A stretch of 64,000 bases of DNA from Oidiodendron maius Zn (taxonomy: Eukaryota > Ascomycota > Leotiomycetes > Myxotrichaceae). The notes below the pieces were generated by a model that was given only the letters and a program-made list of their open reading frames with translations, did not search any database and was not told the DNA's origin. This document shows, in pieces, positions 40,821 through 49,288 of this stretch (position 1 is its first letter; every line of letters begins with the position of its first letter). Position numbers and translations under genes: made by a program. The DNA lies in assembly GCA_000827325.1 (NCBI GenBank), contig KN832887.1, positions 310,001-374,000 on the forward strand, given 5' to 3'.

Positions 40821-40861
40821 ACGTCCATCCCTGCGTGCCGAAAAGACCGGTGTGAGGAAAA
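40821..40861 (+). repeat. Outer left terminal inverted repeat
   Basis: Pairs with 49248-49288 (38 of 41 positions). Its continuation GTACTTTGACTT...TTAAAATCT (40871 onward) resembles the subterminal part of the inner left end, so the two elements are one family. Confidence 0.85.
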
Positions 40862-41323
40862 ACATTACAGGTACTTTGACTTGAAGCATCTTAAAATCTG
40901 TGCACAATTTAACATTTCCTATAATTTTTTATGAGTTATGTTCCATAGCCACTTCTAGACATCTTAAACCTATTGTATCAGAAAATCGCATTTCTATCGT
41001 CGTCTTCACGCCTGATTTGTAAAGGGCCTCCTTTTATAGTATAATAGTGGTCCTCTACTACAGCTCTACCACTAGAAATTATACTATCGCTAATACTTCT
41101 AAAGGAATCTTTTCCGAGCTCTAAGGCCTCACCACTATACAGGAAATCGTCATCAGCCTTGTGGCTGCTGTAACGCGCCATGTAGATAGTACAGCCCTTG
41201 AGTTGAAGCGACTGACGATTTTTGGTAAATGCGAAAAGACCCCTGCACGTCCCATAATACCGTATTAAATTACGATGTAATTTCACTTAGGTAATCATTT
41301 ACTACCTCCAACTAAATTATCTA

Positions 41324-41389
41324 ACGTCGATCCCTACGCAGCGAGAAACCCACCGTGCTGAGAGAAACCATCAGTACTTTGACTTTGAG
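41324..41389 (+). repeat. Inner left terminal inverted repeat
   Basis: Starts ACGTCGATCCCTACG and contains AGCGAGAAACCC. Pairs with 48151-48216 and also resembles the outer left end, including the subterminal GTACTTTGACTT. Confidence 0.8.
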
Positions 41390-41922
41390 TAAGTTAAAAT
41401 CTTTATGTATGTTGATGCTCTTAATCTGTTTTATATAAGTTGTAATCTAGGCTACTCCTAAATATGGACTCGGTTTGTAGTGAGAAATAGTTATAATTTT
41501 GGCTATGCTATCGAGCTTTCTATCAATGGCATTAGAAAGACGCTTTGGCCGTTCCCCCTTGCTCTATGAGGAGTATCGGCCTATCTTCGAATTTCGGACT
41601 AAAGCCACGAAGGTTTTATTAAGAAAGAAAATTGTTTTAAGCCTTTAAAACATAAAGCATAAAGGAAACCTATATACTAAATTTATTTTGGGACTTCACG
41701 AACCCGAGAAGCGCTAAAACCGTGCCCTTACTTCTCGCTTAGTCACGTGAAAACCCATACCTAACCAGACCTATTATAGCTAGCTGGCTTTTCCTACCTA
41801 CCTAAATATAGAATTGAGGTACCGTCGCCGCCTCGAGGCTGTAAACACTACGTATGTATATGGACCTTACCACAAAAATCAGCTGATAACACTTCCTAAA
41901 TACCCGAGATCTTGTCTGGCCA

Positions 41923-44900
41923 ATGCATCTACTGGAATATAACAACGATAGCGAGTTTAGTCTGACTAAGGACTTCCACGATCATATTCCAAGGTACGCT
42001 ATCCTCTCGCACACATGGGGAGCGGATACAGAGGAGGTTAGTTTGCGAGACCTGATAGACGGTACTGGAAAGAGCAAGGATGGCTATCGCAAGATCCAGT
42101 TCTGTGGAGAGCAAGCCAACCGCGACGGCTTGCGATACTTCTGGGTGGACACCTGCTGTATCGACAAATCTAATGCCGTCGAGCTTCAAGAGGCCATCAA
42201 CTCAATGTTCCGCTGGTACCAGAATGCGGTTAAATGCTACGTCTATCTGTCAGATGTTTCGACGGCCAAGCGGAAAAGAAGCACTTCGCCCTCTAAATTT
42301 AATTGGGAATGGCCTTTTCGGGAAAGCAGATGGTTTACCCGGGGCTGGACCCTTCAAGAGCTCCTTGCCCCGAGTTTAGTTGAGTTTTTCTCTCAAGAAG
42401 GCAAGTGGCTAGGTAATAAGAAAACCCTAGAGCAACAAATTCACGAGATAACTGGAATTCCCTTTAAAGTCCTTCAAGGCAGCCCCCTATCGGACTCTAG
42501 TGTTCCCGAACGACTAGCATGGATAGAAAAGCGTAAGACAGGACGCAAAGAAGACAAGGCATACTCGTTACTAGGCATCTTCGACATTCAAATGCCACTT
42601 ATCTACGGCGAAGGCGAAAAGAACGCTTTTAGACGGCTACGAGAAGAGATCAGTAAGGCTTCAAAGAGCGAGATCCTTCCCATACCTGTCGCCGACAATG
42701 CCACATTCGACTCCCGTGCCGAAGAGCACAATGCGCAGTGCCACCCCGATACACGCGTTGACCTTCTCCACCAGATAGAGACATGGGCGGGGGATCCCCA
42801 CGGTAAATGCATTTTCTGGCTAAGCGGTTTAGCCGGCACTGGGAAATCCACCATTTCCCGTACTGTGGCTCTCCGGTTTAAAGAACAGGGACTCCTTGGC
42901 GCCACCTTCTTCTTCAAGAGGGGCGAGCGTGATCGAGGCAGGGCAGCTTTATTCTTCACTACACTAGCTGTCCAGTTGGTTTCAAAAGAGCGCCAGATGT
43001 TACCATTCGTTAGAGAGGCTCTTGATTCCGATCCGGCTATAACCAAAAAATCCCTTAAAGAGCAGTTCGAAAAGCTCATTTTACAGCCACTCGGTCAAGT
43101 CCACCGTGATTCCCAGAATCCCCACACAATTACAATGGTGATTGACGCCCTCGACGAATGCGATCATGATGACGATATTAAGCTTATAATCTACCTCTTC
43201 TCGCGTGTAAGGGGTTTAAACACCATACGTCTTAGGGTTCTCATTACAAGTAGGCCTGAATTGCCAATTCGGCTTGGTTTTGCAGATATAAGAGGCGTAT
43301 ACCAAGATATGGCGCTTCACCAGATCCCGGAGCTTGTGATCGAGCGCGACATATCTATATACCTAAGGTACGAACTCACGAGGATTAGAGATAGCTATAA
43401 TAACCAGGCTTTCAGCGACCAGCAGCTGCCCCCAGATTGGCCAGGCGAACACATCCAAAAATTAGCACGCATGGCTATCCCTCTTTTCATTTTCGCCGCA
43501 ACAATCTGCCGTTTCATCGCAGATGAGACGTGGCTGGACCCGGAAGGCCAACTGGCCAAAGTTCTAAACTACCAGCCGGGTGGTGACACCGAGCTCGACA
43601 AGCTCGATTCTACGTATGTTCCGGTCTTGGATCGTCTGGTTATAGGAAAAACAGGGGAGACTAGGCGTCGCCTAGTAAGCGATTTCCGAGGGATCGTTGG
43701 CCCAATCATTCTCCTAGCTGAGCCACTCTCAGCCTTATCCCTTTCACAACTTCTTGGTATTCCTATCGCACCAATAACCCGTACACTTAAGCACCTCCAC
43801 GTTGTTCTCGATATCCCATCTCGGGCAGATTCCTTCATCAGACCATTCCACTTGTCCTTCCGCGATTTCCTCGTTGACCCTGCTAAGAGCAATGCAAATG
43901 AGTTCTGGATTGACGAGATCAACACGCACCAACAACTTGCAAGGTTATGCATCCAGCGTCTGCAATCGCATCTTAAGAGAGACATCTGCAATTTGAAGAT
44001 GCCCGGTAAATCCCGCACCGACGTTCGTGCAGAGGACCTGGCGATATATCTACCGGCATATATTCAGTATGCTTGTCGATACTGGGTTTCTCATCTAGAG
44101 CAGAGTAAAGAGCAAATAAAAGACGGAGACGAGATCCACCTATTCCTTAAATACCATTTCCTACATTGGCTTGAAGCATTAAGCCTTATAGGGAAGGTAG
44201 AGGAAAGTATCACATTAGTTAATACTTTACAAACACTTATTAGAGTAAGTTATTCAAGAGAAACTAAGCCCTGTTCTATATTAACTAGCCTAATAGCCAG
44301 AAAATACCGAAGTCTCTTCCTTTCTATATGATGCAAATAGATTTATTCTTGGCTACATTTCAGCTATTAATATTGCACCACTCCAGATATATTCTTTAGC
44401 AGTTGTTTTCACACCTGAGAATAGTATAATCCGCCGTACAAACGAAATCCCAACATGGATTAAAGCCAAGCCTAGTATGGAACAAGATTGGAGTTCCTGC
44501 CGCCAAACGCTCGAAGGCCATAAAAGCGAGGTCCATTCAGTCGATTTCTCACCCGATGGCAGATACCTCGTATCAGGTTCCTATGATGAGACTATTAAGC
44601 TCTGGGATATAGCGACGGGGCGGCACCGCCAAACATATGAAGGTCATATTAGTTCCGTTAATTCAGTCGCCTTCTCTCTTAATGGAAGATATATCGCATC
44701 AGGTTCCAAAGACGGGACAGCGAAGCTCTGGGATGTGACGACAGGGCAGTGCCTCCAGACCCATAATTGTGGCCATCTCGGTAGTTACAGCTCTGTTAAA
44801 TCAGTTGCCTTCTCACCTGATGGTAAATATGTCGTGTTAAGCTCTAATAACAGCACCATTATCGTCTGGGATACGGCGACAGGGCAGTACCGGCTGCTTG

Positions 44901-48150: not shown

Positions 48151-48216
48151 AGCAAAGTTAGAGTACCGATCAAATTTCTCGGCACAGCGGGTTTCTCGCT
48201 ACGCAGGGATGGACGT
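48151..48216 (-). repeat. Inner right terminal inverted repeat
   Basis: The reverse complement starts ACGTCCATCCCTGCG and contains AGCGAGAAACCC and GTACTCTAACTTTG, pairing with 41324-41389. It ends 90 bp before the NmrA-like start codon, so it would sit in that gene's promoter. Confidence 0.8.
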
Positions 48217-48305
48217 TATATATGGCTCTGGAATTGCTCAGCATCCGAGTCCAATTTTCAGGGCACAATCAGCATTGTAACACTTGAAGAAATCACACAA
48301 TCGCA

Positions 48306-49147
48306 ATGCGAGTTCTCCTCCTTGGCGCGACTGGGAACCTGGGCAGTCGCTGTCTTCAAGCTCTCATCGCCCACAAGCACACCGTCACAGTTGTCGTTCG
48401 CAATGTGCCCAAGCTTCAGTCCATGATGTCTCCCGCGTTGCTGGAACAAATCCACGCCATCGTAGAGGGCGACGCGACCGATTCCGCAGCCCTGGAGAAA
48501 GCGATTCTCGACCACGACATCGAAGCCATCATTGACGTAGCAGGCAACGTTGTACCCCCTTGGCAAAAGCCCTTGATGCCCGAAATTGCGAGAGCCGTGA
48601 CGCATGCCGCTGTTGCCGTGGGGGAGCAGAGAGGGAAGCCGTTGAGAGCGTGGTTTACTTCTGGGATCATTATTCTGGAATATCCTGGGACTGGTTATCT
48701 CATCAGTGACTAGTAAGATATGACCTTCTTATGCTGAGACTGGAATGTGATGATAATGTTTACAGTATGCCCAGAACGGGTGTGAATCAACACACAGGAA
48801 CACGTGATGTTGTTGAAGTAATCCCTTTGAGTAAGCTTAAGTGGTCCTTATATGGTAGCGCGTGGATGTATTCAAATCGCAAACAAGGACAGTTCGAGCC
48901 GCTTGGTGCACCGATTCCTCATGATCTTCTGGTGAAGGCGAATTCGCCCCCGGGCTGGGAAAAGACTTGGGTGGAAAGGATACCTTTGATTGGCGTGTAC
49001 TTGAACGCATTCTATATGCCCATTGTGCACTATAAGACGCAGTATGAAGCGGTTGCTGAATTTCTGGCTGAGGACTTGGAGAAGGAAGATTCCGAATGGA
49101 TTGGGAAGAAAGTTGCAGTAAAGGAGAAAAGCAAGAAGGACGTTTGA
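48306..49147 (+). CDS. NmrA-like NAD(P)-binding protein
   Basis: Exons 48306-48712 and 48766-49147 (intron GTAAGA...TACAG, 53 bp) give 262 residues. The N terminus is a classic atypical-SDR Rossmann start: beta strand, then GATGNLGSRCLQALIAH, then HTVTVVVRN. An EGDATD motif and an AIIDVAGN strand follow, as in NmrA/HSCARG redox sensors and related reductases. The C-terminal half contains SAWMYSN and an Arg/Lys/Glu-rich tail (KKVAVKEKSKKDV). It is somewhat shorter than typical NmrA proteins (about 300-350), so internal loss is possible. The right ends of both inverted-repeat elements flank it closely (90 bp upstream, 100 bp downstream). Whether it acts as sensor or enzyme is unknown. Confidence 0.75.
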
Positions 49148-49247
49148 AGTGGTGTCGCTTGTGTGGTGATGCCAACTTGTACGAATTGGACGTGCTCTTG
49201 ATTGGCAATTAGCAGCGCGGGACAGATTTGATTATTGCACCGAAGGG

Positions 49248-49288
49248 TTTTCGGCACACCGGTTTTTTCGGCACGCAGGGATGGACGT
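49248..49288 (-). repeat. Outer right terminal inverted repeat
   Basis: Inverse match of 40821-40861 at 38 of 41 positions, followed by TA at 49289-49290. Confidence 0.85.

Follow-up and report, generated by a model that had tools for sequence, protein, structure and literature searches.

We found that a unit bounded by inverted terminal repeats, at 41322-48218 of a 64,000-nucleotide stretch of the Oidiodendron maius Zn genome, carries a complete NOD-like receptor (NLR) gene with HET, NACHT and WD40 domains. The stretch, referred to here as the window, is G000:C18:310001-374000 (contig KN832887.1) of a 45.9 Mb genome in 58 contigs. This inner unit is very probably a non-autonomous member of a pogo/Fot-type transposon family that often carries a complete immune-receptor gene. 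It lies between two further ends, at 40819 and 49290, which also enclose an NmrA-like gene. The initial annotation, made from the sequence alone, had proposed Russian-doll layers here and a TA-inserting cargo element able to move the receptor gene by a route distinct from the giant elements that use a tyrosine recombinase.

The four ends, at 40819(+), 41322(+), 48218(-) and 49290(-), all coordinates including the flanking TA, were the sole matches in the window to a 17-base end pattern at up to 3 mismatches. In 100 shuffles of the window the mean was 0.38 matches and the largest count 2, and none had 4. With no more than 1 mismatch, the end pattern was found at 65 + 66 = 131 genome sites, against 1 + 8 = 9 for a reversed control pattern, and a second end pattern was found at 43 + 51 sites against 1 + 0. 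A separate working set was compiled among the matches listed, some with more than 1 mismatch; it also holds 131 sites, and the equal number is coincidental. Neighbouring compiled sites less than 11 kb apart stood in +/- order 22 times, in -/+ order 5 times and on the same strand 11 times. No inverted pair under 2.4 kb occurred among the 131 compiled sites, a count that decayed ends with more mismatches would escape. A population of miniature inverted-repeat transposable elements (MITEs), with many short gene-free inverted pairs, was not seen. These results indicate that the four ends belong to one terminal-repeat family, as the initial annotation had held, and speak against its own alternative that they are fragments of short MITEs.

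A comparison of 33 ends over 600 bases showed that a single terminal repeat is backed by two long end types, type A (GGTACTTTGACTT...) and type B (TTTATAGTTTAGGGGTCTTAAATCTC...). Among 22 paired loci, 13 were read and 11 were kept as elements, so the further inverted pairs of the same ends that had been looked for do exist. The 11 are the window's inner unit, C5:1794676, C25:64150, C30:84806 (C30a), C30:140922 (C30b), C30:152273 (C30c), C18:374890 (C18c), C3:2587605, C31:70249, C1:213555 and C2:1193544, and they span 3.8-9.6 kb (window inner unit, 6.9 kb). A clear A end and a clear B end were present in 8 of the 11 (C5, C25, C30a, C30b, C30c, C18c, C3 and C31). C2 has a clear A end and its B match is short (88 bases, 82%), C1 is a variant whose ends escape A/B typing, and the window's inner unit has a full A end at the right and a hybrid at the left. 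None of the typable elements was A/A or B/B. The terminal inverted repeats measured 45-55 nt in C30a, C31, C30c and C1, and 48 nt in the window's outer pair. C18c (C18:374890-380014) starts 890 bases past the window's right end and carries a NACHT-ankyrin gene between its A and B ends. A sister end family starting TAACCTC...GAAGCGAAAATCCCG was observed at L039:1719, L036:5261 and also L043:4284, two copies being 89% alike over 456 bases.

Several candidates were left out. C4:156412-164991 was dropped as one element, since its B end has A-type sequence about 1 kb away and its right end is from another subfamily. C13:171759-175048, chosen because HET had already been found there, does carry HET, but its end types are different; C8 and C18:686184 showed no partner end within the sequence examined.

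We then placed the window's ends within these types. The outer left end (40819..41321, +) is a normal A end of 503 bases that reaches the inner element and combines a terminal repeat with an A-type subterminal region, 84% identical over 347 bases to C30c_R. The inner left end (41322..41671, +) bears the terminal-repeat variant AGCGAGAAACCC; its outer 80-90 or so bases are A-like (75% over 81 bases, 1-81), and from about base 100 it is B-like, in register (69% over 251 bases, 101-350). This hybrid looks as if two ends had recombined. The inner right end (47789..48218, -) consists of a terminal repeat and a diverged A-type subterminal region, 66% identical over 436 bases to the A end of C18c. 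The outer right end (49243..49290, -) is a bare terminal repeat that forms a 48-nt inverted repeat with 40819-40866 (90%). It is identical to the C5 and C25 ends at 43/43 bases, and comparison with other family ends gave no A- or B-type match from base 49 onward. The indices of repeat-induced point mutation (RIP) were mild in the elements and similar to the rest of the window, except in the 503-base outer left end, which was somewhat RIP-like (1.19, 0.90).

The ends had initially been paired by sequence variant, outer with outer and inner with inner. In ungapped comparisons over 41 bases, the outer ends agreed at 38/41, as first described. The inner ends agreed at 35/41 (34/40 in the initial annotation), a value equalled by the inner right and outer right ends; the remaining three pairs agreed at 27, 29 and 32 of 41. 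These counts do not by themselves decide how the inner ends pair, but the common AGCGAGAAACCC motif supports the inner pairing. The lesser likeness of the inner ends had been regarded as a difficulty for nesting. In contrast to long terminal repeats, neither terminal repeat of such an element is copied from the other upon insertion. For this reason the difficulty disappears, and the divergence of the repeats probably does not date the nesting.

The receptor gene lies at 41923..46378 (+) and is intact, encoding 1467 amino acids with an intron of 52 nt at 44245-44296 (GTAAGT...TAG). Pfam domains were HET, NPHP3_N/NACHT and WD40, and its relatives include HET-E-1-named proteins. The second gene, NmrA-like/NAD(P)-binding, lies at 48306..49147 (+); it is likewise intact, with 262 amino acids, an intron of 53 nt at 48713-48765, and the Pfam domains NAD_binding_10 and NmrA. 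Both gene models, with one small intron each, are predicted from sequence. A tblastn search with the transposase of an intact relative (E up to 0.01) found no transposase trace in 40819-49290. A host-type gene in each layer and no transposase, as first described, was therefore borne out.

C30a contains an intact open reading frame (ORF) of 597 amino acids (C30:89430-91220) with the Pfam domains DDE_1 (3e-33) and HTH_Tnp_Tc5 (2.1e-5), about 616 bases inside the B end. The sole long inverted pair in C30:84806-91836 was the element's own ends (45 nt, 98%). When this transposase was aligned with 12 relatives (13 sequences), a DD35D triad was found at D167, D278 and D314; D167 and D314 were invariant and D278 nearly so, with a gap in one sequence. 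C31 has the same transposase gene, broken, at the same place, and remnants were found in C25 and C3. A similarity search with the C30a transposase gave no trace in the window, C5, C30b, C30c, C18c, C1 or C2. Because a DDE_1 transposase sits inside the B end of relatives (intact in C30a, broken in C31), the elements were assigned to the pogo/Fot type and are predicted to be Tc1/mariner-like DNA transposons that insert at TA. The initial annotation had called for an autonomous relative with a transposase, and C30a is a relative with an intact transposase. A family with a DDE transposase also agrees with its proposal of a route other than that of the tyrosine-recombinase giants. The tyrosine-recombinase captain (DUF3435) was absent from Pfam scans of ORFs chosen from the elements, and no search aimed at the captain was made. 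No transposase relatives in viral contigs appeared among 39 pattern matches, and a sequence search of solved structures returned one match (E 0.058), which is not meaningful.

A further A end of the window's inner variant was seen at C38:18768, in a region extending beyond 26878 (L056, L061) with a NACHT-ankyrin ORF of 1434 amino acids and highly repetitive ankyrin repeats; its partner end was not found. We considered this locus as an autonomous relative of the window's end variant and rejected it. The nearby DDE ORF of 520 amino acids belongs to a different, nested element, because it is flanked by its own perfect 46-base inverted repeats (C38:19200-20991).

To look for empty sites, the 60-base flanks of 12 elements were joined around one TA and searched against the same genome. 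The C31 flanks matched a paralogous empty site at 98.5% over 205 columns with the TA intact, and a second match was found at C1:867955 (87%). For C30b, the empty site was 80.2% identical over 1314 columns, again with the TA intact. The C30a counterpart was 83.8% identical over 222 columns with AG in place of TA; there were 12 weaker matches too, because this element sits in an apparent end of another family member. A weak match for the C5 junction (78%, 16 bases across the junction) was not counted. The empty sites of C31 and C30b show that the target duplication is a single TA, not TAA. The junction-spanning empty sites of C31, C30b and C30a therefore demonstrate that HET/NLR-carrying members of the family inserted whole, as units, at TA. 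By analogy, the window copy may have inserted at TA as a unit in the same way.

In the Pfam scans, HET or STAND (signal transduction ATPases with numerous domains; NACHT/NB-ARC) genes were present in 8/11 elements, or 7/10 without the window. HET-NACHT-WD40 cargo was found in the window, C30c and C31, HET in C30b, NACHT-ankyrin in C18c and NB-ARC-TPR in C1. C30a carries HET-WD40, its HET part coming from a separate sequence comparison and not from the Pfam scan of ORFs, and C5 carries NB-ARC, a NACHT region apart from it and a hydrolase-like ORF slightly below the Pfam cut-off. Of the other three, C25 holds an enoyl-CoA hydratase-like ORF, C3 a short-chain dehydrogenase, and C2 both a zinc-cluster regulator and an alpha/beta hydrolase. 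The ends are thus common to the elements while the interiors differ. C30a and C31 resemble each other in the A end (81%) and in the transposase-B block (about 86%) but not in the middle, where their receptor genes have opposite orientation, the picture expected if cargo were exchanged on a common chassis. These results, 8/11 with HET/STAND and 3/11 with other cargo, suggest that the family takes up host genes generally with a bias to immune receptors.

Gene position relative to the compiled sites was counted with 147 of 152 NACHT rows (3 second pieces or weak rows dropped, 2 more beyond the 150 listed), 150 of 481 HET candidates and 124 of 130 DDE_1 rows (6 dropped). Within 6 kb of a site, 18 NACHT rows lay inward and 1 outward (147 rows; one-sided binomial 3.8e-5), two of the 18, C11 462309 and 463079, possibly being one gene. 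Without the window the counts were 17 and 1 (146 rows; 7.2e-5). When the sites were shifted locally, the mean was 4.2 inward NACHT rows with a maximum of 12, and 0/1000 shifts reached 18. Of the loci related to the window NLR, 13/49 faced inward and 0 outward (58 rows merged to 49 loci, window included).

Several observations weigh against assigning the window's inner unit to this family as a mobile receptor carrier. Its left end is a hybrid, and its end variant is not among the variants with an identified transposase. Both window layers were among the other nine of the 12 joined flanks, which gave no convincing empty site in this genome. HET alone (8 inward, 4 outward) and DDE_1 alone (4 and 4 at 6 kb) showed no significant excess. 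Among 15 loci at least 55% identical to the C30a transposase, only 8 face a compiled site within 11 kb, and one of these, C30:136808, faces only a site owned by another element; 1/15 lies just outside a site and 6/15 are without any among the sites listed. The proposed TA-inserting cargo element is upheld for the family by its copies, transposase-bearing relatives and three empty sites, and the inner unit fits it, subject to its hybrid left end and the empty site that was not found.

The outer pair requires a separate judgement. We lean slightly towards the view that 40819/49290 mark another layer, now decayed in part, and that the inner element jumped into it. Somewhat less likely is that the inner unit is the transposon proposed above and the outer pair is no element at all: 40819 would be an old decayed end, 49290 a solo terminal repeat, and the NmrA-like gene a resident host gene. 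This second possibility agrees with an outer right end that lacks an A/B region and with an NmrA-like gene that is single copy, with no close second copy in the genome (nearest paralogue 44% identical), has full-length relatives in Helotiales, and differs from its surroundings in composition (TpA/ApT 0.51, GC 0.50). Taken together, named relatives of the transposase and the NmrA-like protein occur in Lachnellula, Cadophora, Pseudogymnoascus, Hyaloscypha and others; transposase relatives at 60-85% include those in Lachnellula, Cadophora, Pseudogymnoascus, Bipolaris and Alternaria. On the other side, the outer ends are 38/41 identical, inverted and of the same repeat variant, and the right end is only 143 bases from the NmrA-like stop codon. 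Russian-doll layouts also occur elsewhere: C30:80750-92024 encloses C30a (C30:84806-91836), and its outer layer includes a HET gene at C30:83110. As for the NmrA-like gene, it comes from the host and has been either captured or merely enclosed. Of the nested layers first described, the inner one fits, and the outer one as a mobile NmrA carrier is weakened by its bare right end, the single gene copy and the lack of an empty site.

Another possibility considered was that NLR gene blocks multiplied by segmental or tandem duplication and took old transposon ends with them, in which case the ends would be passengers of the genes. NLR families in other fungi cluster and diversify through duplication (PMC12258605), and several elements lie on one contig, C30. 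We regard this as very unlikely, since the elements have common ends around unrelated interiors (NB-ARC-TPR, NACHT-ankyrin, HET, dehydrogenase, transcription factor), NLR orientation relative to the A/B axis varies, and three copies have junctions that match their empty sites exactly. An insertion preference near NLR genes, by which ends flank genes they never carried, would fit NLR-rich regions that are also site-rich (local shifts still yield about 4 inward NACHT loci), but is more improbable still, as it predicts genes inside and outside alike against the observed 18 inward and 1 outward, and insertion of whole A-to-B units with their HET/NLR gene is evident from the empty sites.

If the inner unit is a non-autonomous family member, its movement may be pictured as follows. 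The full form consists of an A end, cargo, a transposase reading inward from the B end, and the B end. The transposase of full copies would recognise the common ends and would cut and paste transposase-free copies in trans, every jump carrying the whole cargo gene. The window copy, with its different end variant, may owe its movement to a C30a-type or sister transposase, and cargo may be captured and exchanged among elements.

Elsewhere in the window, a DDE_1 relic with 7 stop codons was observed at 27175-27702, and three more HET-domain genes at 10323, 52273 and 58169, the last in a frame of 1507 amino acids.

Pack-MULE and Pack-TYPE elements of plants have common ends with varying captured host sequence and are moved in trans; they belong to other superfamilies and carry mostly gene fragments, whereas the elements here carry whole genes, biased to immune receptors. 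The Fot family of the pogo superfamily (Fot1, Pot2, Flipper, Tan1) is described with DD35D, terminal repeats of 40-60 bp and a family criterion of TA or TAA, the target TA being reported for clades FotC and FotD; pogo elements are reported there to have a length of 1.2-5.2 kb and transposase only (PMC7386202). The elements here share DDE_1 with HTH_Tnp_Tc5, DD35D, 40-60-bp repeats, the TA target and a fungal host with that family, but at 3.8-9.6 kb are outside the 1.2-5.2 kb range and carry host genes, most often HET/NLR. That range is descriptive, not defining, and the elements are a cargo-bearing variant of the Fot type. The ends, the transposase type and the TA target are known features, and the NLR/HET cargo and the length appear to be what departs from known Fot elements. 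Starship giants are likewise fungal mobile elements with HET and NACHT cargo but are very large and have a tyrosine-recombinase captain, in contrast to the DDE transposase and length below 10 kb found here (PMC9594970). A hAT element with captured histone H3 is also a fungal DNA transposon with terminal repeats that multiplies a host gene; it has an 8-bp target duplication and one captured transcript, amplified and RIP-inactivated, as against many different genes, several intact, in the present family (PMC6710886). A literature search at the level of titles and abstract openings, without preprints and with few subscription papers, turned up Starships and hAT gene capture, and no Fot/pogo element with NLR cargo was recognised in it.

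It is possible, if rather doubtful, that some lineages of the family are immune-receptor transposons proper, in which an NLR/HET gene is a permanent module next to the transposase (C30a, C31, perhaps C14). Such lineages would exchange and diversify the gene and benefit from it, because it protects the host or because it kills fused or sibling nuclei without the element; in the latter case the incompatibility gene would be a selfish spreading device. If true, a sizeable share of NLR genes (up to 18/147 NACHT rows, facing inward of ends) would owe its place to transposition. More generally, the family would be a compact, specific vehicle by which fungal immune genes are moved and multiplied. A DDE transposon below 10 kb with whole receptor genes, and with transposase-bearing relatives and empty sites in the same genome, would provide a direct second route apart from Starships and a parallel to the carriage of defence genes by bacterial mobile elements. 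On this view, incompatibility genes should be polymorphic for presence and absence at TA.

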